Origin: Deltaproteobacteria bacterium
GTDB taxonomy: Bacteria; Desulfobacterota; Desulfomonilia; Desulfomonilales; Desulfomonilaceae
Direction of reading: 5' to 3'
DNA length: 54,823 nucleotides
Assembly (NCBI GenBank): GCA_026388665.1
Contig: JAPLJJ010000056.1
Span: forward strand, 1-54,823
A program made the translations under genes and the position numbers. Shown here in pieces: positions 28,255 to 41,545 of the stretch; position 1 is the first letter of the stretch; the number at the start of each line of letters is the position of its first letter. Under the pieces are notes generated by a model. That model had not been told where the DNA came from and made no database searches. It was given only the letters and a program-made list of their open reading frames with translations.

Positions 28255-30327
28255 TCAAGCCGTTGAACCGATAAACGAAAAATCGGCCACTACAGTGAAC
28301 AATTGGAAAATATTACCCAGAAGCGCCAGCCTGTTTCGTCTTATGTCAGGATCTTCAGCCATGACCAGAACTGAGTCAAAAAATACATCGATGGGTCGTC
28401 TCAACTCAGTCATTATTTCCAACGCCGCCGAATAGTCCCCATTAGTAAATGCGACCCCGCATCTGTCACTGACAGTCTTCAGCGTTTCATACAGATCTAT
28501 CTCAGAGGGGGCTTGCAGTAGTTCCGGTCTCAACTGAGCGGGAGCCTGATCTTTCAATATATTCATTACCCTTTTGAAACCAACGAGTATCAATTCAAAG
28601 TCGTCTCTTTTTTTCCATGCCGCCAGGGCCTCCAACCGGCGTCTCGCATCAACCATGTCGTAAAAATCAGCCCTTACAACCGCTTCAACAACATCGAGTG
28701 GAAAATCTCGCCCTGCATGGAAGTTCACAAACCTCGCCCTGAAGAAATCTAATACGTCGGCTTCAACTTCATCTCTGGATCGAGAACGTTTGGATTCAAC
28801 GAGCCCAACAGCCTCTTTAATCAACCATGTCAGATCAACTTTCCATTCGTGTCGCATCAGGATCTGAATGATCGATATTGCGTGCCTCCTCAGAGCGTAT
28901 GGATCAGCCGCGCCTGAAGGAATCAACCCAACACTGAAACATCCGCAAATGGTGTCTATACGATCGGAAATGGACAATACGGCCCCTATAACGCTTTCAG
29001 GCAGGTCATCGCCGGAATGAGTGGGGAGATAATGCTCTCTAATCGCTGTAGCAACCTCATCCGACTCACCGTCCATTCGTGCGTAATAACTGCCGATGAT
29101 GCCTTGCAGTTCCGGAAACTCGTAGACAATGCCTGTTTCCAAATCGCACTTGCACAACAAAGCGGCCCGCTCAACCTGCGAAATCTTTTCAGGCGCCCAC
29201 ATACCAGCCAGCATACGGGCTATGGCTGCGAACCTTTCAACCTTTTCAAACGCGGTCCCGAGCCTGGAATGAAAAACTACCCCCTTTAGAGCGCCCAATC
29301 GATTGAAAAGCGGTTGTTTTCTATCTTCTTTGAAATAGAACCTGGCATCTTCAAGTCTTGCCTTTAGAACTCGCTGATGTCCCCGCCTGGAAACTTCTTC
29401 GTCTTTCACCGGGGTATTGTTGACCGCAATGAATCGATTCCTGATTCTTCCCTGCGCGTCCTGAAGACAGAAATATCTCTGGTGTTTCTTCATGCACGTG
29501 ATCAGGATGGATGCGGGAAGTTCAAGAAAATCTTTGGAAAAAGAACCCATGATGGGATATGGGCTCTCAACAAGGAAAGAGATCTCATCCAGCAGCGCCT
29601 CATCTTCGAAAGGCATCAATCCTTCCGACTCGGCCATCTGCTTGACTTCGTTTTTTATGATCGCAGCGCGCTTTTCAAAATCGATTTCAATCCCCTGATC
29701 ACTTAATTTGTCTCTAAAATCATGAAAAGAGGCGACCATGAAACTTTGAGGATGAGTGAACCTGTGGCCAAAACTGTAATTCGCGCTCGAGATATTTCCA
29801 AAACTGAACGGTATTACAGTCCCGTCAAAGATTGCGATGATCCAGTGGATAGGACGCACAAATCTTACGTCAAGATCCATCCACCTCATTGTCTTGGGGA
29901 AATAAATTTTTTCAAGGATTTCCGGAATTGCCTGAGAAAGGGCTTCTATTGTGGAGCTGCCCTCTTCTGTTTTCCTAACGCCGACGACTTCACACTTTGG
30001 AGTTTGTATTCTTATCAGGTCCCCAACCGAAACCCCCTGGCTCCTGGCGAAGCCCTCAGCAGCCTTTGTCGGTTTCCCCAAGTCGTCAAAAGCAGAGGCG
30101 ACAGGAGGACCTGTTTTTTCGAACGTTCTCGAATCGGATGACTCCGCCACATCGGATATTCTCATTATGAGACGACGTGGCGTGGCAAATGTCTCAATCG
30201 GGCCGTGGGAAATCAAAGAGTTCTCAAAAAAGCGTGAAAAAAGCTCCGAGACTGATCGCAACGCCGGTTTTATATAACCGGCTGGTATTTCTTCTATCCC
30301 AATTTCAAGTAAAAACTCGCCTTTCAT
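28255..30327 (-). CDS. glyS: Glycyl-tRNA synthetase beta subunit
   Basis: 690 residues. Together with GlyQ it forms the alpha2beta2 bacterial glycyl-tRNA synthetase, and the beta chain recognises tRNA-Gly. The start is LLEIGIEEIPAGYIKPAL, a family hallmark. ATPRRLIMRI (about 50-60), SFGHRFTHP and the MKKHQRYF segment (about 270-277) are present, and a DALR-type anticodon-binding domain closes the protein. ATG at 30327 has AAGGG eight bases upstream and is preferred to ATG at 30342, which has none. glyQ ends about 23 bases upstream, so the two form the usual operon. Confidence 0.96.
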   Translation of the reverse strand: MKGEFLLEIGIEEIPAGYIKPALRSVSELFSRFFENSLISHGPIETFATPRRLIMRISDVAESSDSRTFEKTGPPVASAFDDLGKPTKAAEGFARSQGVSVGDLIRIQTPKCEVVGVRKTEEGSSTIEALSQAIPEILEKIYFPKTMRWMDLDVRFVRPIHWIIAIFDGTVIPFSFGNISSANYSFGHRFTHPQSFMVASFHDFRDKLSDQGIEIDFEKRAAIIKNEVKQMAESEGLMPFEDEALLDEISFLVESPYPIMGSFSKDFLELPASILITCMKKHQRYFCLQDAQGRIRNRFIAVNNTPVKDEEVSRRGHQRVLKARLEDARFYFKEDRKQPLFNRLGALKGVVFHSRLGTAFEKVERFAAIARMLAGMWAPEKISQVERAALLCKCDLETGIVYEFPELQGIIGSYYARMDGESDEVATAIREHYLPTHSGDDLPESVIGAVLSISDRIDTICGCFSVGLIPSGAADPYALRRHAISIIQILMRHEWKVDLTWLIKEAVGLVESKRSRSRDEVEADVLDFFRARFVNFHAGRDFPLDVVEAVVRADFYDMVDARRRLEALAAWKKRDDFELILVGFKRVMNILKDQAPAQLRPELLQAPSEIDLYETLKTVSDRCGVAFTNGDYSAALEIMTELRRPIDVFFDSVLVMAEDPDIRRNRLALLGNIFQLFTVVADFSFIGSTA

Positions 30328-30350
30328 AGCATGGCCCTTCATCCGGAAAA

Positions 30351-31238
30351 TTAAACGTTTTCTTCTCTGAGTAACGGAAATCCCATAACTTCACGTTGGT
30401 TCAAGTACGCCTGTGCGGCCTTTCGGGCCAGATTGCGAACCCGATGTATATAAGAGGTTCGTTCGGCAACGCTAATTGCGCCCCTAGCGTCAAGGACATT
30501 GAATACATGAGAGCATTTCAGACAATAATCATATCCTGGTAATGCAAGCGGCTCATCACTATCCAATAAAGCCTCGGCTTCGGCTTCGTACATTGAGAAC
30601 AGTTTAATCAACATTCCAGCGTCAGCTCTCTCAAAGTTATAGAAGGAACCTTCCACCTCTGATCTGTGATGAATATCCCCATAGGTAATGTTTTGTGTCC
30701 ACTTCAGGTTGTATACGCTCTCCACACCCTGAAGGAACATGCATATTCGCTCAATTCCATAAGTCAACTCCACGGAAACCGGCTTCAGATCGAAACCACC
30801 CGCCTGTTGAAAGTAAGTGAATTGTGTAATTTCCATACCATCCAACCAGACTTCCCATCCGACTCCCCATGCGCCGAGTGTTGGGGATTCCCAGTCATCT
30901 TCCACAAACCTGATGTCATGAGACAAAGGATCTATGCCTAACGACGCCAGTGATTCGATGTACAATTCCTGAATCTCGAGTGGAGATGGCTTCAATATAA
31001 CTTGGTATTGGTAATAGTGCTGAAGCCTGTTAGGATTTTCTCCGTATCTGCCATCCGTGGGACGTCTGGAGGGTTCGACATAAGCCACATTCCAAGGCTC
31101 TGGTCCCAATACTCTAAGAAAAGTCGCAGGATTCATCGTGCCTGCGCCCTTTTCAACATCATAAGGCTGCTGAATCACGCAACCATGATCCGCCCAAAAC
31201 CTTTCCAAACCAAAGATTAACTCTTGAAACGTGAGCAT
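30351..31238 (-). CDS. glyQ: Glycyl-tRNA synthetase alpha subunit
   Basis: 295 residues, standard length. This is the catalytic class II aminoacyl-tRNA synthetase subunit that forms glycyl-adenylate. The signatures are [14 protein letters not shown] near the start, [20 protein letters not shown] (motif 2 region), [20 protein letters not shown], and [12 protein letters not shown] as motif 3. It is the first gene of glyQS and faces a divergent TPR gene across a 191-base gap that should hold its promoter. Two-subunit glycyl-tRNA synthetase is typical of most bacteria, including Desulfobacterota. Confidence 0.97.
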
Positions 31239-31429
31239 TGACAGGGCCTTCCTGAGCTTGATTGTGTCCCGACTCTCCGTGTGGCCTTTCGGCTGGAATC
31301 GAGCTATCCCTTCTTCGTAACATTAGAGCTTTTAACAAGTCAAGGTCCGCTCTCGGATTTGATTAATGTCTCATAACCGCGTATAATTCGCTGAACTGCC
31401 ATCGATACAAAAAAACCGGAAAGGACTTC

Positions 31430-31993
31430 ATGCGAAAAGATAGTGTTTCACCTTGGCTTATCTGCGTCTTCCTGACGCATGCGCTCCTGACCGTCGTGAC
31501 CCCTGTTCTTGGGCAATCGGAAACGCTTGATCCGACCAAATCCGATTACTATGTAAAAAGAGGCTTGGCCTTTATGGAAAAGGGTCAAACATCAGAGGCG
31601 ATAGCTGACTTCACTGCCGCCTTGGAGATTAAACCAGGCTCAATAACAGCTTTGAGTCAAAGGGCTAGGGCCTTTTTCTTCACCGGTCAGGCATCAAGGA
31701 GCATGGATGACCTTAATCGGGCGATCCGACAGGTGCCTTCAAACGCTGATCTCTTTAAATTAAGAGCTGATATACTTTCGACTTCGGGCGACTTCGAGAA
31801 TGCGATCAAGGATTATAACAAGGCAATAAGCTTGTCGCCGTACACCGCTGCGGCTTATAACAACAGAGCGGTAGCTCTGGCAAACCTAAACAAAGCGAAA
31901 GAGGCGGTGGAAGATCTTAACACTGCTATGGAACTTTCCATCACTAAGCCCAGTTCTCCAGCGCCATCCGTTTTTCAGGGATCGCAATGGTAA
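31430..31993 (+). CDS. Secreted TPR-repeat protein
   Basis: 187 residues. A signal peptide (about 1-29, hydrophobic core WLICVFLTHALLTVV, cleavage after VLG) precedes about four tetratricopeptide repeats. They start YYVKRGLAFMEKGQTSEAIADFTAAL and continue at about 34-residue steps to AAAYNNRAVALANLNKAKEAVEDLNTAM. TPRs form protein-binding superhelices, so this is probably a periplasmic assembly or scaffolding factor. The C terminus is short and lacks another domain. It stands alone between glyQ and the electron-transfer cluster. Confidence 0.82.
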   Translation: MRKDSVSPWLICVFLTHALLTVVTPVLGQSETLDPTKSDYYVKRGLAFMEKGQTSEAIADFTAALEIKPGSITALSQRARAFFFTGQASRSMDDLNRAIRQVPSNADLFKLRADILSTSGDFENAIKDYNKAISLSPYTAAAYNNRAVALANLNKAKEAVEDLNTAMELSITKPSSPAPSVFQGSQW

Positions 31994-32148
31994 TAATGCT
32001 TTAACTTTTCCTGCCACCGGAGAGAAGTCTTCTTAATCAGAAATAAATTCTTCGAATCATGGCCGGGTTTTTGGGCTATCGACGCGCTTTGGTAATTTAA
32101 TCAACGCAAGACCTTTTTAATCAAGATCGAGAGGTTTTGGGATCTGTG

Positions 32149-33207
32149 ATGATTGGAAACCATGATAGACGGGTAATAATTGTGGGAGGCGGGATAGCCG
32201 GCTTGGCTGTCGCCAGGTTGCTTTCAGAAAATGGGCTGCCGTTCACTCTGGTTGAAAGATCCGACAAATTAGGCGGCCACACGAAGGATTGGGCTTGCAT
32301 GGCCGTAGATGAGTGCAAGAACTGTTTCTGCTGTTTGGTATTCGATTACGAGGACACAGTGGCCTCTTGCCGGAACAGCGAGATATTGGTCGGTTACGAA
32401 CTGTCATCGGTCGTCAGCTCTGATTCAGGAATCCAGCGAGTTAAAGTCCGACAGGTCGATTCCGGAGCGGAACAGGAAATTCAAGCCTCTGCTCTAGTCC
32501 TTGCAATAGGTTTTGACACCTTTGACCCGGTTGACAAGGGTTTCTGGGGATATGGGCAGATTGACGGGGTGCTTACACTGGCTGATCTTAACCATATTAT
32601 ACGATCAAATGATTTGGGGAAATTATCCCCTGTTCCCGAAGGTGCGTTAGATGTAGCTTTTTTCCAGTGTATCGGGTCACGTGATAAATCTATTGGAGCG
32701 AACTATTGTTCTCAGTATTGCTGTGGGAGCGCAATCAGGGCAGCCTTGAAACTTATCCATGAAGTCCCAGGCTGCAACGTTTCCATCTTTTATATTGACC
32801 TGCAACTCCCCGGTAAAACTACTCGGGACTTAATGGAGGAAGCCCAAGAAAAAGGCGTTCGTTTCCTGCAAGGGGTCCCTGGTGAAATCCGGCCGCTTCA
32901 GGAAGGCGGACTCCAGGTAATCTCGGAGATAGATGGTCAGAACGTGGCTGAACGGTTTGACCGGATTGTGCTCTCTGTTGGGCAACGCCCATCTGCATCT
33001 GCCGCTGCCATCTCAAAAATATTGGGAGCGCCCTTGAATGAGTTTGGCTTTTTTGAAACACGCACTTTGTTTGACGCCGTTCGTTCTCCCGCTAATGGCG
33101 TATATATCGCTGGTAGTTGCTCTAGCCCGGCAAGCATCCCGGACGTTGCGGTTAGTGCTGGAACAGTAGTCTCAGCCATAATTGCCGACATCGAAAAGGC
33201 AAGTTGA
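32149..33207 (+). CDS. HdrA/QmoA-like FAD-dependent oxidoreductase
   Basis: 352 residues. The N-terminal FAD Rossmann motif VIIVGGGIAGLAVA lies at residues 9-22, with LVERSDKLGGH following. A cysteine-rich DECKNCFCC (Cys56, 59, 61, 62, plus Cys50) sits where QmoA has its conserved PPTCG stretch. The HdrA signature FFQCIGSRD...NYCSQYCCGSAI is near residue 175, and the late GVYIAGSCSSPASI closes the FAD site. QmoA and HdrA pass electrons between quinone or Fe-S partners and a flavin, and HdrA can bifurcate. Start ATG 32149 is preferred over TTG 32137. It is the first gene of the electron-transfer cluster, eight bases before the QmoB-like gene. About 350 residues is shorter than usual QmoA (about 410). 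Confidence 0.85.
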   Translation: MIGNHDRRVIIVGGGIAGLAVARLLSENGLPFTLVERSDKLGGHTKDWACMAVDECKNCFCCLVFDYEDTVASCRNSEILVGYELSSVVSSDSGIQRVKVRQVDSGAEQEIQASALVLAIGFDTFDPVDKGFWGYGQIDGVLTLADLNHIIRSNDLGKLSPVPEGALDVAFFQCIGSRDKSIGANYCSQYCCGSAIRAALKLIHEVPGCNVSIFYIDLQLPGKTTRDLMEEAQEKGVRFLQGVPGEIRPLQEGGLQVISEIDGQNVAERFDRIVLSVGQRPSASAAAISKILGAPLNEFGFFETRTLFDAVRSPANGVYIAGSCSSPASIPDVAVSAGTVVSAIIADIEKAS

Positions 33208-33214
33208 GGTAATT

Positions 33215-34825
33215 ATGCTTAACTCTAAACTTCAAACAAATACGCTTCAAGAAACTCGTGCTAATCAATCGGCGTTGGTTGTGGGTAATGGATTGACCGC
33301 TTCAATCGTGACCGCCGCCGTCAAGAGCCTTGGAATCGATGTAACTCGATCCAAATTTGGATTAGATTCCGCGCTTCTGTTTCATAGTGGTGGACGCGGA
33401 CCATTCGAGGCTTTTGTCAGGTTTCTAAATGAAGGAGCGTTCCGGTGCGAGACAACGGCAAGTTCGACCCCCGTCGAGATAATCCCTGTCGAAAAAGGAT
33501 TTGTCGTAACTTTTGATGATGGAAGTAGATCTGAATTCGGCTGCGTTTTTTTTGCGACGGAGGGAAACCTGAAACCGATTCCCAACGATCTTCCCGATGG
33601 TGTCAACATTGTAACACCTGGAATATTGAAAGTCCCCTCGAGCCAATCCGCATGTTTTGTCCTCGATTATGAAGAAATTACAGATCCGTCAATTGGCATG
33701 AACGCTATGCGTATGGCTCTGGATAATCAACTCTCCGGCGGGAATTCGTTCGTCCTTCTGCGCCATGCCCCGGTCCAGGGAATGCTCGGAGAGACCTTGT
33801 ATGAAACGGCCCGTCTGGCAGGGGTAAGGTTCCTTAGATTTGGAAATATAGCGCCTAGAATTGAGCGCCTACAAACATCCAACGACTTGTCGATTAAGTT
33901 TCAAATATCCATTCAGGACATTATTGAACGAGGAGAAGATATTCTCATCGAATGTGATCGGGTGTTTGTGACAGTGAATCCTCTCCCGGCCGACATTCCG
34001 ATTGCTTTCAAACATCTCTTAAGCAAAGAGACCGACCCGTTGGGATTTCTGATCCAAGACAGCGTTCATTGTCTAACAGGAAAATCCTTTCGAAGAGGAT
34101 TATACTGCGTAGGACCTTCAACCGGGTGTATGGATCTCCTTGAAACTGTTTTTTCGGCCTCGGCGGCAGCAGCCGATGCGAGATCATGGCTCGGTCTCCT
34201 TGAACAGGCGCCATCAAGCTCGAAAATGTCCGTGTCAGAACAATGTATCAGATGCTTGACATGCTTGCGGTTGTGCCCGCATGCGGCAATATCCCTAAAA
34301 TCTCAGCCGTCCAAGTCCAGTGTGAACATTACAGGGGCCAGATGTTTGGAGTGCGGAATATGTGTCGCTGAATGCCCACGAAACGCTCTTGATCTGAAGG
34401 GTTTCCCGGAAGAGGACTTTGTGACCCTGATTGAGAGACTCCGGGCACAGAATGCTCACGACTCGACTGTAGTTTTTGGCTGCCATCGATCTGCCGGCCG
34501 AGCGCTATCCGAAATTGAACTGCCGGAAAAGGTGATCTTCTTTCCTGTTTCTTGCGCTGGCAGACTGTCTGAATCAATCCTGTCAGCCACTCTGCTTGCC
34601 GGAATCAAGGGGATCTTGGTGCTCGGTTGTCACCACGGGAACTGCCGGTCGAAAAACGGAACCGATTGGGCAAAGGCCCGTCTTGATACAATGACAACCA
34701 GGTTGAACACCATGTTTAAGGACATAGGTTCATTTTCATATAAGACAATGGCCGCCAATGAATCCCCAAGGATGCTAAAACTAATTAATGAATTTCTAGA
34801 TTCAGTTGATAGAATTCCCGATTGA
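33215..34825 (+). CDS. QmoB-like protein: degenerate HdrA domain, two 4Fe-4S sites and MvhD-like domain
   Basis: 536 residues. The N-terminal HdrA-like domain keeps only a partial dinucleotide motif (ALVVGNGLTAS, residues 20-30), so FAD binding may be weakened. The 2x[4Fe-4S] ferredoxin module is intact, with CIRCLTCLRLCP at about 343-354 and CLECGICVAECP at about 376-387. The C-terminal MvhD/FlpD-like domain (about 410-500) keeps SCAGRLSES and LGCHHGNCRSKNG but has lost the first FCCNWC cysteines (FGCHRSAG instead). This order of domains is that of QmoB. It probably relays electrons between the QmoA-like flavoprotein and the HdrD-like partner. ATG at 33215 has GAGG before it. Confidence 0.82.
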   Translation: MLNSKLQTNTLQETRANQSALVVGNGLTASIVTAAVKSLGIDVTRSKFGLDSALLFHSGGRGPFEAFVRFLNEGAFRCETTASSTPVEIIPVEKGFVVTFDDGSRSEFGCVFFATEGNLKPIPNDLPDGVNIVTPGILKVPSSQSACFVLDYEEITDPSIGMNAMRMALDNQLSGGNSFVLLRHAPVQGMLGETLYETARLAGVRFLRFGNIAPRIERLQTSNDLSIKFQISIQDIIERGEDILIECDRVFVTVNPLPADIPIAFKHLLSKETDPLGFLIQDSVHCLTGKSFRRGLYCVGPSTGCMDLLETVFSASAAAADARSWLGLLEQAPSSSKMSVSEQCIRCLTCLRLCPHAAISLKSQPSKSSVNITGARCLECGICVAECPRNALDLKGFPEEDFVTLIERLRAQNAHDSTVVFGCHRSAGRALSEIELPEKVIFFPVSCAGRLSESILSATLLAGIKGILVLGCHHGNCRSKNGTDWAKARLDTMTTRLNTMFKDIGSFSYKTMAANESPRMLKLINEFLDSVDRIPD

Positions 34826-34880
34826 TCAAATCAGCATTCTGTCAAACTGTCGATGATGTTATCCGTAAATGGAGCGACTA

Positions 34881-36098
34881 ATGGATCGTGGAACCATTTC
34901 TAATTCTGCTCAGAACATGAACCGGACAAACAGCGATGAGCATTCTAAAAATATTGACATCTGTTTCACGTGCGGGCAATGCGTTTCCCGTTGTTTCCTC
35001 AGTCAAAGTTATCCGGATATCAATCCTAGAAAGATAATTCGAAAGACCTTGCTTGGGCGGGAACGGGAGATAATAGATTCAGAGTTTATCTGGGCATGCA
35101 CTCTATGTGGAAGATGTACTACGGATTGTCCCCAGGGATTGCATATGGATGTAATAGTCAGGCGGTTGAGATTTCTTGCCTGCGGCCTGGGCAAAGGTCC
35201 AAAAAGAATATTGCAGGGAATTGGTAAGGCCCTTGAGGTCGGAAATAACGTCGGCATGGAACCGGAAGCCTTTGTTGACATGGTTGAATGGCTGGTGGAA
35301 GAAACCACCGAAGAAATGGAAGGCTCGGAAAATAACAGCATATCGGCGCCGTTTGACAAGAAGGGCGCAGAGATCCTCTACCTCCCTAATCCGAGGGAAT
35401 ACACATCGAATCCGAAGATGTTCCAGACCTATTTGAAGTTTTTTTCGTACACTGAGGCGGACTGGACACTTTCGTCAAGGGTCTTTGACATCACAAACTG
35501 GGCCTATTACATGGGTGACGCTGAAGCCGCGACAACCTTGGTTCGAAATATAGTTGAAGAAACCCGGCGCCTTGGAGCCAAGATTCTCCTCTCCACGGAG
35601 TGTGGTCACGGATTCAAGATCTTGCGCAAGGACGCCGAGACATGGCTAGGAGAGCCGTTAGGCTTCGAAGTGCTTGGGATCGTGGAATTGGCTCATCGTT
35701 ATCTGAAACAAGGCCAACTATCAATCAAGCCGGCTTCCATAGAAGGCAGGGTTACATACCATGATCCATGTAATGTGGGTCGGAAACTGGGGGTGTTTGA
35801 GGAGCCCCGTCAGTTGATCAAAGCCATCACCGACGATTTTGTCGAGATGTGGCCCAATCGAAAGTATAGCATCTGCTGTGGAGGAGGTGGATCGGTTGGG
35901 CAAAACACCGACATGGGGCAAAAAAGGCTTGAACACGCGCGGAAAAAGATTGACCAGATAATCAAAACCGGCGCAAATGTTGTCGCCACCTCGTGCCAGA
36001 ATTGCCTCAGTCAGCTCGATGATTTACAGGCTGGCAATGATCTTCCGATACAGGTAAAATCGGTGATTGAGCTGGTGGTTGAATCAATTGAAGCTTAG
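34881..36098 (+). CDS. HdrD-like Fe-S oxidoreductase (first paralogue)
   Basis: 405 residues. The N-terminal HdrC-type module has two complete 4Fe-4S motifs, CFTCGQCVSRC (Cys28, 31, 34, 38) and CTLCGRCTTDCP (Cys73, 76, 79, 83). An HdrB-type module with two CCG-like halves follows. The second half is canonical (YHDPC, CCGGGG near 333, SCQNC near 372), whereas the first has a single cysteine (STECGHGF), so a non-cubane cluster there is doubtful. HdrD-type proteins exchange electrons with thiol/disulfide or other partners. ATG at 34881 with GGAG six bases before is preferred over ATG 34869. It is about 60 per cent identical by eye to the gene at 39070. Confidence 0.87.
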   Translation: MDRGTISNSAQNMNRTNSDEHSKNIDICFTCGQCVSRCFLSQSYPDINPRKIIRKTLLGREREIIDSEFIWACTLCGRCTTDCPQGLHMDVIVRRLRFLACGLGKGPKRILQGIGKALEVGNNVGMEPEAFVDMVEWLVEETTEEMEGSENNSISAPFDKKGAEILYLPNPREYTSNPKMFQTYLKFFSYTEADWTLSSRVFDITNWAYYMGDAEAATTLVRNIVEETRRLGAKILLSTECGHGFKILRKDAETWLGEPLGFEVLGIVELAHRYLKQGQLSIKPASIEGRVTYHDPCNVGRKLGVFEEPRQLIKAITDDFVEMWPNRKYSICCGGGGSVGQNTDMGQKRLEHARKKIDQIIKTGANVVATSCQNCLSQLDDLQAGNDLPIQVKSVIELVVESIEA

Positions 36099-36180
36099 AA
36101 ATAGGGAATGGATCGCCTGGGGGTCATACAGTCTTTTTTCTACTGAAGAGACATTATAATAATTCACGGGAGATTGGAAT

Positions 36181-36915
36181 ATGGCGGATAACATCTGGTA
36201 TTTCGTTATGGTTCCGATGGTTTACCTCGCTGTGGCGTGGTGCGCTGTAGGCATAGCGCTAAGGATTACTGAGGTTCTTAAAGCGCCCAAGCTCCCTCGT
36301 ACCCTGAGGATTTTTCCTGAGGGCAAGGGACCCGATGACCCACCTGTTTCCAGTCTGGTGGGAGCAGTGTGGGACGCGTTTACGATGCCGTCGTTGAAAC
36401 GCTATAAGCCTTTGTTGTGGTTTTTCTTGATTACGTTCCACATCGCCTTATTCCTACTAGTGTTGGCTCACCTGGATCTTCTACCACAAATTAACATCAT
36501 GTCAGCCGAATCAGAGCACATGATCGGAAACGGAGCCGTCGGCGTAGTCTTTACGGTTTGCCTACTTTACTTTCTCTTCCGAAGATTCGTCGGGCCAGTA
36601 CGAGAAGTTTCCGTGCCGGCCGACTATTTGACACTGCTGCTACTCCTGTCCATTGCAATTACCGGAGATATGATCAGTTGGGGAAACTCCTGGAGCGAGA
36701 ATGGATTTGTGATGACAAAAAAGGACTTTGGGGCCTATCTGGATAGTCTGATCAAGTTCACATTTGCAGACCCCCGTCAGTTTTTGACCGGCTCTCACCT
36801 GGCAATTGCGGGTACCCATGTGCTCCTGGCCAACTTGTTTCTTCTTGTGCTGCCGTTCAGTAAGATCATGCACGTTTTCTTTGCTGTACCGTTAAATAAG
36901 TTGAGGAGGGGATGA
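36181..36915 (+). CDS. Cytochrome b-type membrane subunit (NarI/DsrM/TmcC-like)
   Basis: 244 residues with about five transmembrane segments (roughly 6-27, 78-100, 118-137, 150-166 and 200-222). Histidines suited to haem b ligation lie in TFHIALF and LAHLD (TM2) and in SHLAIAGTHVLL plus the terminal KIMHVFFA, matching the NarI/DsrM pattern. Such subunits oxidise or reduce menaquinone and pass electrons to a cytoplasmic Fe-S partner. It sits one base before the DsrK/TmcB-like gene, mirroring dsrMK and tmcCB. Without a periplasmic cytochrome c gene nearby, the direct electron source is the quinone pool or an unlinked cytochrome. Confidence 0.85.
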   Translation: MADNIWYFVMVPMVYLAVAWCAVGIALRITEVLKAPKLPRTLRIFPEGKGPDDPPVSSLVGAVWDAFTMPSLKRYKPLLWFFLITFHIALFLLVLAHLDLLPQINIMSAESEHMIGNGAVGVVFTVCLLYFLFRRFVGPVREVSVPADYLTLLLLLSIAITGDMISWGNSWSENGFVMTKKDFGAYLDSLIKFTFADPRQFLTGSHLAIAGTHVLLANLFLLVLPFSKIMHVFFAVPLNKLRRG

Positions 36916-36916
36916 C

Positions 36917-38164
36917 ATGGAAGACTCCGAAAAAAAACAACTTCTCGGGCTGCTGGCTGAAAAGCTAAACCAGTCCGTGCGTATGTATATGGACAATTGC
37001 ACCCGTTGCGGCGCCTGCATAGAAGCGTGTCACGCCTACGCTTCGACAGGTGATACACGTTATACTGCGGTTGCCAGAGCCCAGAACATACGCAGGCTCT
37101 ACGAAAAATACCACTCTTTCACCGGCAAGACGGCTCCGTGGCTCAACGAGGCCGTCGAACTCGATGAACGATGGATGGAAAAAGTTTACGAGACAGCGTT
37201 CACATGCACAGGGTGTCGCCGATGCATGACATACTGTCCTTTCGGCATCGATACCCAACAGATCCAGGTCATCGCCAAGATGATGCTCATAGGGGCTGAC
37301 ATGGAACCCAGACCACTTTCCATGAAAGCCAAGGGGTCCATAGCGAAGGGAGAGAAACTAGAGGCCACCAGAGAGAAATTTGTGAAGGAGCTTGAGAAAA
37401 TAAAACCGGACGTGATTGAAAAGTGGCCCGGAAAAGTTGGCGACGATGTTATTCCGCTCGATGTCAAGGGCGCAGACGTGCTGTTCGTTTCAATGGCCGA
37501 AAAACCTTCAATTGTCCCCGCCGCAGCCATCCTGAACGCTGCCGGAGAGAACTGGAGCCTCAGCTATTTTGAAGCTGTCAACTTCGGGGCCTTTCTAGGC
37601 AGCCCAAAGATGACTCAGCAGATATACGAGCGGATAGTGTCAGAGGCCGAACGCCTGGGCGTCAAGGAGATGGTAATCTGCGAGTGTGGAACAGCTTACC
37701 GCATCATGAAACATGTGATCGGCAAACGTGATTTTAATGTTATTACTTTCATGCAACTCATCGACAGATACCTTAAACAAGGCAGAATCAAGCTTGACAA
37801 GTCTAAGATAAAGGGGCGAATCACCTACCACGATCCTTGCCAGATCGCTCGTAATGGTGGGATCTACGAAGAACCTCGGAACTGCCTGAAAGCCATGACC
37901 GACGATTTTGTCGAAATGACGCCGAACCGTCAGTCGAACTGGTGTTGCGGTGGTGGTGGAGGCCTGGTGATCGCCGCCGAACCTGAATTCCGCTTGATGA
38001 CATCCAGAGTGAAGGCGGAACAAATAAAAGCTACGGGGGCCAAAATATTGGCCACGGCATGCGAGATGTGCTTTGCCCAACTCAAGGACTTGAATGATGA
38101 GTATGAACTTGAACTGAAGGTAACAATGGTGTCCGACCTCGTAGCAAATGCTCTTGTTCAATAA
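36917..38164 (+). CDS. DsrK/TmcB-like Fe-S oxidoreductase
   Basis: 415 residues. Two complete 4Fe-4S motifs, CTRCGACIEAC (Cys28, 31, 34, 38) and CTGCRRCMTYCP (Cys97, 100, 103, 107), precede a CCG region with CECGTAY, then YHDPC, CCGGGGG and ACEMC near the C terminus. This is the HdrD-type layout of DsrK, HmeD and TmcB, the cytoplasmic partner of the NarI-like cytochrome b. It follows that gene by one base, with AGGAGGGGA upstream. It therefore forms the quinone-linked arm of the cluster. The catalytic CCG site in this family is thought to act on a thiol/disulfide carrier such as DsrC, which is not encoded here. Confidence 0.88.
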   Translation: MEDSEKKQLLGLLAEKLNQSVRMYMDNCTRCGACIEACHAYASTGDTRYTAVARAQNIRRLYEKYHSFTGKTAPWLNEAVELDERWMEKVYETAFTCTGCRRCMTYCPFGIDTQQIQVIAKMMLIGADMEPRPLSMKAKGSIAKGEKLEATREKFVKELEKIKPDVIEKWPGKVGDDVIPLDVKGADVLFVSMAEKPSIVPAAAILNAAGENWSLSYFEAVNFGAFLGSPKMTQQIYERIVSEAERLGVKEMVICECGTAYRIMKHVIGKRDFNVITFMQLIDRYLKQGRIKLDKSKIKGRITYHDPCQIARNGGIYEEPRNCLKAMTDDFVEMTPNRQSNWCCGGGGGLVIAAEPEFRLMTSRVKAEQIKATGAKILATACEMCFAQLKDLNDEYELELKVTMVSDLVANALVQ

Positions 38165-38270
38165 CGAAGTTCAAGACACTTTTCCTTAGCAGTCCTTCCG
38201 GTAGGCGTATCAATATTGGGCACGGAAAGAGCAGTGCCCTCAAGTAATTTCTTAGGAGATAGAGATTGTC

Positions 38271-38981
38271 ATGTACACGATATATCCTTTAGCTGTGGGG
38301 TTCAACGAGACTGATCAGGGAATAATGACTTATCAGCGCTTTTACGGCAAACGCATAATCTTGCCAATTTATGTGTTTGCTATTAAAGGCGGAGAGAAAA
38401 AGATCCTTGTGGATACTGGGTTGGAGGACTTCATGGCCCCTTCGGATCTTGAAGAGAGAATCGGATTCCCTGTAATGGATTTCGAGGAAGCCTTGGAGAC
38501 CGTAGGCTGGAAACCCGATGAAGTGGACATCATCGTTCACACGCACCTTCATAACGACCACTGCGAAAACGACTCGCTTTGCACGAACGCCGATATTTAC
38601 GTACAGCAGGCCGAACTCGACTTTTGCCTCAATCCTCATCCCATCGATCACCGGTACTATCCGGAAATCCTTGAAGGCCTGAACATCAAGACCGTTAAAG
38701 GAGACGCCAAAATTGTCGACGGGATCGACGTCCTTTTTACGCCCGGTCACACCCCGGGAGGGCAGTCGGTAGTCGTGGAAACTTCCATGGGAAAAGCAAT
38801 CATCACTGGACTATGTTGCAACTCTGAGAATTTTCCATCAGGTGGAGGGGTTATTGCCCCCGGCGTTCACATAGACGCTATACAGGCCTACGAGAGTATG
38901 ATCCGAATAAGGGAATCGGCAGACATTCTCATACCCATTCACGATCTCGAGATAGGCAGGAAGAAAAGCATACCAAGCTGA
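38271..38981 (+). CDS. Metallo-beta-lactamase-fold hydrolase (AHL-lactonase-like)
   Basis: 236 residues. The metal motif HLHNDH is at residues 92-97 in IVHTHLHNDHCEND, with LVDTGLED earlier and TPGHTPGGQS near 160, all placed as in N-acyl-homoserine lactonases and relatives. There is no signal peptide, so it is cytoplasmic. The enzyme should hydrolyse a lactone, ester or thioester. It lies between two iron-sulfur protein genes of the cluster, so a metabolic thioester or lactone is more likely than quorum quenching. AGGAG precedes the ATG. Substrate assignment is open. Confidence 0.85.
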   Translation: MYTIYPLAVGFNETDQGIMTYQRFYGKRIILPIYVFAIKGGEKKILVDTGLEDFMAPSDLEERIGFPVMDFEEALETVGWKPDEVDIIVHTHLHNDHCENDSLCTNADIYVQQAELDFCLNPHPIDHRYYPEILEGLNIKTVKGDAKIVDGIDVLFTPGHTPGGQSVVVETSMGKAIITGLCCNSENFPSGGGVIAPGVHIDAIQAYESMIRIRESADILIPIHDLEIGRKKSIPS

Positions 38982-39069
38982 CATCGGGCTTGACCGGATG
39001 CAACGGCAAGTCCCACCCCCTGTACCTTAGGTACCATCATTTAGCTACTTCCTAGGAGACAATGTAACC

Positions 39070-40284
39070 ATGACTGTTGAGAATATTATTACAGAGCAAC
39101 AGGCGTCCTCCATAGCCGCGACATGCGGCGGAGAAGACCTTCGGGAATGCCTGACTTGCGACAAATGCCTTTCGACATGTTTTCTGAAGGACGCATACCC
39201 CAACATGAACCCGCGGGAACTCCCAAGAAAAATTTATCACGGTCGCATACAAGAACTGGTTGATTCCGAATTCATTTGGGCTTGCACGCTCTGTTCCAGG
39301 TGTACCGTAGACTGTCCCAAAGGCCTTCAAATGGACCTAATTGTAAGGACACTGCGCCATTTGGCGGAAAGTCAAGGAAAGGCGCCCAAGCGTCTTGTAG
39401 AAGGTATTGAGAAAATCAATGAAGTCGGCAACAGCGTCGGGATTGATTCTCAGGAATTCGTGGAGACCCTGGAATGGCTGGGCGAAGAAGCAGCGGCCGA
39501 AATCGATTACATCGACGAAGAAACCTTCTCAGTTCCCATTGACAAAAATGGCGTCGAGTTTCTGTACATTCCCAACCCGCGAGAATACACTTCTATGCCA
39601 CACATGTTCTCTGTTTACCTCAAGTTCTTTTCTGCGGTAAAGGCCGATTGGACTTTTGCCTCGGACGTTTGTGACATATCCAACTGGGCTTATTTTATGG
39701 GAGACCAAGAAACTTGTACCAAACTCCTTAGAAACATCGTGGACGCGGCTGGGCGCCTCGGCGTAAAAACTCTCGTTTCAACAGAATGCGGACACGGTTT
39801 CAGTATTCTTCGCAGGGACGCCGAGAAAATGCTGGGGCAACCACTTGGCTTCGAGGTCGTTTCAGTCGTAGAACTGGCGCATCGTTATTTCGAGGAAGGT
39901 CGGTTGAGGCTTAAGCAAGGCCATGTGAAAGAAAGAGTGACCTATCATGATCCCTGCGAAGTCTCTAGAAAACTTGGAGTTTATGAGCCGCCTCGGGAAC
40001 TCCTCAAGTTCGTAGCTCAAGACTATATTGAAATGTCCCCTCACGGAAAATACGGCCTCTGCTGCGGCGGAGGCGGAGGCGTAGCGCAAAATGCCGACAT
40101 GGGACGCAAGAGACTCGAGAATGCCAAGGAAAAGCATGATCAGATAGCCCAAACAGGGGCCGCTATTGTCGCCACTTCCTGCCAGGCGTGTCTGGCTCAA
40201 CTAAACGATATTGTAACTTTCTACAACATGACTGTGAATGTGAAGTCTGTGATGGAACTGGTTGTGGAATCTCTTGCGGATTGA
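39070..40284 (+). CDS. HdrD-like Fe-S oxidoreductase (second paralogue)
   Basis: 404 residues, closely similar along its whole length to the product of the gene at 34881. Shared stretches include EFIWACTLC, YIPNPREYTS, STECGHGF and LGFEV. Two complete 4Fe-4S motifs, CLTCDKCLSTC (Cys27, 30, 33, 37) and CTLCSRCTVDCP (Cys72, 75, 78, 82), and the C-terminal CCGGGGG and SCQACL are kept. As in its paralogue, the first CCG half has a single cysteine. AGGAG precedes the ATG. Duplication with retention suggests two alternative partners, for example different thiol or CoA-linked substrates. Confidence 0.87.
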   Translation: MTVENIITEQQASSIAATCGGEDLRECLTCDKCLSTCFLKDAYPNMNPRELPRKIYHGRIQELVDSEFIWACTLCSRCTVDCPKGLQMDLIVRTLRHLAESQGKAPKRLVEGIEKINEVGNSVGIDSQEFVETLEWLGEEAAAEIDYIDEETFSVPIDKNGVEFLYIPNPREYTSMPHMFSVYLKFFSAVKADWTFASDVCDISNWAYFMGDQETCTKLLRNIVDAAGRLGVKTLVSTECGHGFSILRRDAEKMLGQPLGFEVVSVVELAHRYFEEGRLRLKQGHVKERVTYHDPCEVSRKLGVYEPPRELLKFVAQDYIEMSPHGKYGLCCGGGGGVAQNADMGRKRLENAKEKHDQIAQTGAAIVATSCQACLAQLNDIVTFYNMTVNVKSVMELVVESLAD

Positions 40285-40576
40285 TTCATAGATACTATTG
40301 AGCGCCAGTTTTTCAATTTATTAATCCATTACATTAGATTTTGGTTATAATATATTACAATAATATCATGTTTTATGCATAAATGTCTTGACTTTGTCCC
40401 GCGTTTGGGTTAGGCATCATAGGCATAGTTTGAAAATCCGCTTTAGCGAAGTTTCAAACCTTAGGGGAACAAATTGGTGCGGCCCGGGGAGAACTAAAGC
40501 CCAGTCCCAATAAAACAGATAGAGTACAATAAATGGTTTTAGACACTTCGGTTCATCACCGGCTGGAGGTATGCTT

Positions 40577-41545
40577 ATGGTAGCAAGGGGCAAAAACCGA
40601 ATTCCTTGTTTTTTAGCAATAGTCCTAATTTTGGTATTAGGCATGTCGGGCTTCGCGCTGGCTTGGGAACAGGCCTATCGTTATCCAGTCAAAGTGAATG
40701 TCTCCGAAGCCCACAGACAAAGTCCCAATCTGGCTTCGACCGGCTGTCTCCCTAGCGACGGAGGATCAAGTTGGGATGTAGCGGCAGGCCAGGCGAAAGC
40801 TGAGATACTTTGCCCCAAACGAGGCTACAGTTTCGAAATGGGCATGCGGCCTTTCTTCTCCTCATTGATCGGGTCAGCGAAACCGGTCAGCAGGGGTGGC
40901 GAAGGATCGTTTCTCAGTCTGCGCGGTCATCTGCGAATCCCGGACGAGAAAACACTCTGGGAGTTTTATTCCCACCTCAGACTATGGGATAAAATAGCTC
41001 TTCGGATCGAATACGCCCCATGGACTTGGTCCGGTCCAGGTCACATGCCGATCGACGCCAACTTCGCCGGTATGGCTTTGAAGAGCGGAGACGCTATTCA
41101 GTCAGACCTGGGAATCACTACCTTCACTATTGGCGGTGATTACGATGTGGCTTTCGGTAGAGACATCGTATTCGGTCCCAATGCGGACCTAAATGTGATC
41201 AAGTGGACCCAGAAGGTCCTCAAAGATCAGGGCACATCGATGGATTTCTCGCAAACCATTCTGCAGCCCGCAATTGGCGCTCACTTACGTTATGAGCCTA
41301 CAAACACCGGTTATTTCTCATGGTTCAAACCGTTTCTTCAAGCAAGATTCAGTTGGATGAGTTTTGATGGTCTAGGGCTCTCAACTTGGGACATGTGCGC
41401 CGGTATTGCGCCGCCTGTCAGCAGGAATGTGGACGCCGGTTTCAAGTTGGGCTACAAACAATGGCGACTTGACGGGAACCGTGCCAGACTGTTCGCTGAC
41501 GTGAGCGTAGAAGGCCCATACATGGATCTCTCCCTTCAATTCTGA
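40577..41545 (+). CDS. Hypothetical outer-membrane beta-barrel protein
   Basis: 322 residues. ATG at 40577 has GGAGG seven bases before it; ATG at 40571 is too close. A signal peptide (hydrophobic core CFLAIVLILVLGMSGFALA) leads to a mature protein with alternating beta patterns rich in Phe, Trp, Tyr and Gly, such as YSFEMGMRPFFSS and RIEYAPWTWSGPG. The last residue is Phe (DLSLQF), the classic C-terminal signal for outer-membrane barrel assembly. No specific family was recognised, so porin, receptor or adhesion roles are all open. A strong terminator follows at 41576. It is probably a single-gene unit. Confidence 0.72.
   Translation: MVARGKNRIPCFLAIVLILVLGMSGFALAWEQAYRYPVKVNVSEAHRQSPNLASTGCLPSDGGSSWDVAAGQAKAEILCPKRGYSFEMGMRPFFSSLIGSAKPVSRGGEGSFLSLRGHLRIPDEKTLWEFYSHLRLWDKIALRIEYAPWTWSGPGHMPIDANFAGMALKSGDAIQSDLGITTFTIGGDYDVAFGRDIVFGPNADLNVIKWTQKVLKDQGTSMDFSQTILQPAIGAHLRYEPTNTGYFSWFKPFLQARFSWMSFDGLGLSTWDMCAGIAPPVSRNVDAGFKLGYKQWRLDGNRARLFADVSVEGPYMDLSLQF

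Follow-up and report, generated by a model that had tools for sequence, protein, structure and literature searches.

It is still an open question how electrons pass between the menaquinone pool of sulfate reducers and cytoplasmic carriers of low potential, and Qmo itself has been suspected of confurcation (PMC10553843). Among the described systems, HdrABC-MvhD and the QmoAB-HdrBC variants bring together HdrA flavin domains, an FlpD/MvhD domain, HdrC and an HdrB-type CCG protein; DsrMK (of DsrMKJOP) and TmcBC have adjacent genes for a NarI-type cytochrome b and a DsrK-type Fe-S/CCG protein; and EtfD/EMO/HdrF, in which a NarI-like cytochrome b is fused to an HdrD-like part, combine a menaquinone-facing cytochrome b with CCG Fe-S domains. 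HdrA loci with HdrD, and HdrD containing selenocysteine (Sec), are already known in sulfate reducers (PMC2702500), as in Desulfobacterium autotrophicum HRM2, where the hdrA4-hdrD2 locus places HdrA beside a fused HdrCB and HdrD4 contains Sec. Sulfur-carrier genes occur with redox or transport genes in the DsrE2-TusA clusters of sulfur oxidisers and in the YTD cluster. Here we describe a seven-gene redox cluster in a contig of 54,823 nucleotides (JAPLJJ010000056.1, assembly GCA_026388665.1, Desulfomonilaceae; hereafter the window), whose parts are relatives of these enzymes and whose combination is present in no other genome examined. Our preferred reading, which we hold at about even confidence, is that two separately conserved redox modules make up the region and are coupled via a thiol/disulfide relay.

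All seven open reading frames (ORFs) lie on the + strand, in exactly the order given by an earlier inspection of the letters alone (the sequence-only reading), and they are not chance ORFs since their frames are open and conserved in relatives. Module A starts with a QmoA/HdrA-like flavoprotein (32137..33207, 352-356 aa, probable start ATG 32149), which includes the HdrA flavin region (167.6 bits to NF040770), matches the 349-aa PDB chain 6tjr over its full length as well as methanogen HdrA in profile searches, and has Cys54/60/63/66 and a CSxxCC motif conserved among relatives. It is followed by a QmoB-like gene (33182..34825; probable start 33215, judged by orthologues) encoding the second HdrA half with two [4Fe-4S] sites and a C-terminal FlpD/MvhD domain, and by HdrD1 (34869..36098), an apparent mosaic that joins an HdrC-like part with two [4Fe-4S] sites to one complete CCG. 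Module B is composed of CytB (36181..36915), DsrK-like (36917..38164; two [4Fe-4S] sites and a CCG, with an ECGT motif), an AiiA-lactonase-like hydrolase of the metallo-beta-lactamase (MBL) fold with an HxHxDH motif (38271..38981) and HdrD2 (39070..40284), a paralogue of HdrD1. CytB is a NarI-family membrane cytochrome b (Nitrate_red_gam match of 45.9 bits; NarI chains matched by profile) in which His87/97/206/213/231 are invariant in the alignment of relatives; these include pairs spaced 10 and 18 residues apart, which we take to be the spacings of the NarI haem ligands. HdrD1, DsrK-like and HdrD2 each carry two CxxCxxCxxxC motifs and a single complete CCG. Measured from the longest ORFs, the intergenic gaps are -26, 43, 82, 1, 106 and 88 bp.

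Compared with HdrABC-MvhD and QmoAB-HdrBC, the cluster has the HdrA flavin, HdrC and HdrB-type subunits, but HdrA is split in two, HdrC and HdrB are fused in HdrD1, one CCG is degenerate and no hydrogenase, formate dehydrogenase or apr gene adjoins. Unlike DsrMKJOP and TmcBC, module B has no J, O or P subunit (no DsrJ, DsrO or DsrP among the ORFs at 31.4-41.5 kb with Pfam and NCBIfam) and no multihaem cytochrome, and its relatives lie beside DsrE2 and TusA. The best scores in the cluster are well below the curated NCBIfam cut-offs: DsrK 260/400 bits, TmcB 208/735, HmcF 210/750, DsrM 31/300, TmcC 34/240 and QmoC 37-38/300. The TmcB and HmcF values also place the cluster outside TmcABCD and Hmc. 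The hdrA4-hdrD2 locus of HRM2, for its part, has no joined CytB-DsrK.

The sequence-only reading had seen in the cluster incomplete Qmo and Dsr sets, with HdrD and a cytochrome b in place of QmoC, a view that the rest of the genome contradicts. The metagenome-assembled genome (MAG) to which the window belongs, as contig C63, comprises 3.28 Mb and is 83% complete; in it, contig C9 carries a canonical qmoC over cut-off preceded by QmoA- and QmoB-type genes, and contig C154 carries dsrA over cut-off with an adjoining weaker dsrA-like match, read as dsrB. It remains correct that the window itself contains neither apr nor dsrAB, though canonical qmoC and dsrA are found elsewhere in the same genome. 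QmoA-like and canonical QmoA proteins form separate clades (100/100 each), and the cluster has no QmoC membrane subunit and adjoins glyQS instead of aprAB. The host thus looks like an ordinary sulfate reducer of which the seven-gene cluster is neither the Qmo nor the Dsr.

Module A was followed through a family set of 18 genomes including that of the window, six others of which (G001-G006) belong to the same genus; G, L and C numbers are labels of genomes, loci and contigs. In G001-G004 and G006 it occupies the glyS-glyQ-TPR site, with genes for an outer-membrane-type (OM) protein and a lytic transglycosylase directly 3', and in G005 the same pieces are spread over two contigs. It is likewise located at glyQS in G012 and G014, on other contigs in G008, G009 and G017, and divided in G010, where QmoAB and HdrD1 are separated by ~1 Mb. 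Within the genus, the glyQS site was occupied ancestrally by module A, whose gene order QmoA-QmoB-HdrD recurs outside the family. Nineteen genes around module A or around its relatives, examined with Pfam, revealed no recurrent catabolic gene (arginine biosynthesis, ksgA, rpsB, PocR sensors, Band-7 proteins, others and one AMP-binding enzyme). The surroundings examined consisted of housekeeping genes or a mixture (glyQS, arg genes, rsmA/ksgA, rpsB), and no EtfA/EtfB signature was found near either module; the role in acyl-CoA or aromatic-acid oxidation suggested by the sequence-only reading finds no backing there.

The CytB-DsrK pair of module B is distributed differently, occurring in nine copies in 8 of the 18 family genomes (the window's included) and being absent from all six same-genus genomes, two of which are 97% and 99% complete. 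G017 shares with the window the order CytB-DsrK-MBL-HdrD2, and the HdrD2 of the window is sister to that of G017 (100/100); the MBL-fold hydrolase, also 3' of DsrK-like in G017, is 82% identical to the copy in L029. G009 has CytB-DsrK at the glyQS-TPR site (L028) and module A on a different contig. Modules A and B are joined only in the window, in none of the 17 other family genomes, so the proposal of a single combined unit gives way to two separately conserved ones, QmoA-QmoB-HdrD1 and CytB-DsrK, an outcome that the sequence-only reading had itself named as refuting its view. What stands of the one coupled cluster is that the modules adjoin each other on the same strand, where they could connect a cytoplasmic flavin/Fe-S chain with the quinone pool.

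Beyond the family, a clear CytB was found in 12 of 297 sampled genomes of the phylum, that of the window included. The recurrent partners of the CytB-DsrK family are sulfur carriers: all 15 loci examined that fall outside the subclade of the window (11 from other phylum genomes, L234-L244, and four from the family, L032-L035) have DsrE2 and TusA genes ahead of CytB-DsrK, DsrE2 being confirmed by PF13686 for one locus and TusA having the motif CPMPVVK. A MarR- or ArsR-type regulator, read from sequence, often precedes them. In the DsrK-like tree the window falls inside this DsrE2-TusA-linked family (20-row clade, 100/99), and the five family loci without DsrE2/TusA, the window's among them, form one nested clade (100/100). 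Neither gene is adjacent to CytB-DsrK in the window or its five-member clade, and PF13686 has zero matches in the whole window genome. Because DsrE2/TusA accompany the pair in 15/15 loci and the window's clade is nested inside them, the ancestral setting of CytB-DsrK is sulfur-carrier chemistry, with loss of DsrE2/TusA in the window's subclade, and a carrier of the TusA/DsrE2 type probably served as the original substrate of the pair. These relatives differ from the YTD cluster and from the clusters known in sulfur oxidisers in pairing DsrE2 and TusA with CytB-DsrK, and the window has neither carrier. Our comparison suggests that the DsrE2-TusA-CytB-DsrK gene set is spread across the phylum; no description of such a cluster was found in the open-access literature searched.

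The junctions of the two modules indicate how they met. QmoAB of the window groups with the genus (100/100), but forcing HdrD1 into the genus is rejected (AU test, p 0.0086, whole gene). HdrD1 residues 1-105 are genus-like (93/96 in a tree on residues 20-105, and sliding identity), whereas residues 106-345 fall outside the genus, nearest to G008, G017 and G009 (AU p 0.016, C-terminal part), which gives an approximate breakpoint at 35150..35260 (+ strand; sliding identity and partition trees). The right edge of the inserted block lies at 40285..40330 (+), by match to the HdrD1-OM spacer of the genus: from ~40328 the window DNA is 83-86% identical to this spacer in five same-genus genomes and 80% in G005. 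Module B is inserted between HdrD1 and the OM gene and came from another family member, apparently by recombination. On the simplest reading, the native HdrD1 recombined with a block that starts within an HdrD gene and brings CytB-DsrK-MBL-HdrD2 with it. Contig mis-binning was considered and rejected, GlyQ being 92-94% identical to same-genus genomes versus 81-88% to other family genera. The block does not differ in composition from its flanks and its right junction matches genus DNA, two points that we count against mis-assembly.

The HdrD proteins offer a view of the chemistry. In HdrABC the HdrB part has two complete CCG motifs and in HdrD1 there is one. HdrD1 has no further Cys between about residues 165 and 245, which leaves its first CCG degenerate, with Cys245 isolated beside the site of the complete CCG cluster. 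At the position of this Cys245 (E-C-G-H), the HdrD genes of QmoA-QmoB-HdrD units outside the family have an in-frame TGA in 7/7 cases checked (L196, L197, L199, L200, L207, L208, L209), the frame being open before and after it. This TGA probably encodes Sec, which argues for redox catalysis by thiol/selenol chemistry at that site. An HdrD family with Sec replacing a conserved Cys was not found described as such in the open-access literature searched; the swap singles out this position as a target for mutagenesis in forms that have Cys. Among solved structures, the mycobacterial EtfD 9ojn is the closest homologue of the CCG proteins, and the predicted structure of HdrD1 (pLDDT 73, six-row alignment) matches both EtfD and HdrB chains. 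HdrD1 His247 aligns with EtfD His583, and HdrD2 keeps the aligned His too, whereas DsrK-like has Thr at this position. In EtfD, His583 is a ligand that caps the noncubane cluster, which is thereby rendered non-catalytic (PMC13083937).

We therefore propose for the composite locus, with the even confidence stated above for the relay, a mechanism along the following lines. Module A would be a soluble split-HdrA flavin/Fe-S complex with an FlpD domain and a fused HdrC-HdrB-like protein, and module B would have entered by recombination inside HdrD1, ending in the spacer 3' of it. CytB-DsrK would most likely exchange electrons between menaquinone (via haem b) and, at the DsrK CCG cluster, a disulfide or persulfide on a cytoplasmic protein, the putative substrate. 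HdrD1 and HdrD2, with the same E-C-G site, would give the flavin complex access to this putative carrier or to one like it, and quinone-level and FlpD/ferredoxin-level electrons would meet through the thiol/disulfide relay. A bolder version, in which the seven proteins form one membrane-tethered assembly, with menaquinone-linked CytB-DsrK and the split-HdrA complex sharing two HdrD thiol/disulfide subunits as a quinone-coupled bifurcating or confurcating persulfide/disulfide oxidoreductase without described counterpart, seems to us improbable. Several points weigh against the proposal. The joined arrangement is known from a single MAG; promoter and terminator signals in the cluster are at chance counts, so a single transcript is unsupported; the mosaic inference uses short partitions and an approximate breakpoint, and its test followed inspection of the tree; given His247, HdrD1 could be merely an electron wire; and with TusA/DsrE2 gone from the subclade loci, the ancestral substrate may not apply. 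A natural joining of quinone-linked DsrMK-like and HdrA-type flavin modules would serve as a test case for the coupling of quinone-level and low-potential electrons.

The strongest competitor, to which we attach a substantial but less than even probability, is that the modules are mere neighbours, brought together by recombination between homologous HdrD genes and working independently. Indeed, they are apart in all other family genomes, an HdrD homologue is a ready target for recombination, and G009 holds both on different contigs. The tight spacing on one strand tells against this, however, as do the presence of HdrD2 beside CytB-DsrK in G017 too, which makes an HdrD-type partner a repeated companion, and the occupation of the glyQS-TPR site by CytB-DsrK in G009 (L028) as well.

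The likeness to EtfD raises another explanation, that CytB-DsrK is a split EtfD/EMO-type oxidoreductase between electron-transfer flavoprotein (ETF) and menaquinone, used in acyl-CoA oxidation. Besides the homology to 9ojn, the structural match of HdrD1 and the conserved His of HdrD1 and HdrD2, enoyl-CoA hydratase-like (L234) and acyl-CoA-synthetase-like (L034) genes, read from sequence, occur near the pair in single genomes. But EtfD is one fused chain, whereas here cytochrome b and CCG are on separate genes; DsrK-like carries Thr in place of the capping His; and no locus of either module has EtfA/EtfB signatures or ETF genes nearby, DsrE2-TusA being present instead in the 15 loci, which leaves this explanation unlikely. 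Far less probable still is a variant Qmo in which QmoAB-HdrD1 feeds adenosine phosphosulfate (APS) reductase and CytB-DsrK substitutes for QmoC. The replacement of QmoC by HdrBC in other sulfate reducers, reported in PMC13416013 (citing Pereira 2011), lends it some precedent, yet the same genome has canonical QmoABC, QmoA-like belongs to its own clade, aprAB is not nearby and every other genome seen has module A without an adjoining CytB-DsrK.

The cluster is bordered on the left by a syntenic flank (28255..31993) with glyS and glyQ on the - strand and a TPR gene on the + strand, and on the right by the OM gene (40571..41545, +), which directly follows HdrD1 in same-genus genomes. The leader of the OM gene (40390-40565) is strongly conserved in seven family genomes and has a predicted hairpin set of 42 pairs, five of which show compensatory changes in one or more sequences; it has no Rfam match and its net covariation term is unfavourable. 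We regard it as a candidate structured RNA leader; a cobalamin-type riboswitch was considered and is unsupported by Rfam. In G006 (L125, C95, 8341-10194) decay or sequencing error has left the QmoB frame of module A split in two ORFs, and a PocR-domain sensor gene lies just 5' of the QmoA-QmoB-HdrD unit in L196 and L199. Finally, a ksgA/rsmA-like gene is found near CytB-DsrK, HdrD2 or HdrD1 in four family genomes, at L028, L029, L030 and L130 (Pfam-confirmed in L130 only), hinting at a ksgA neighbourhood as an older home of module B.

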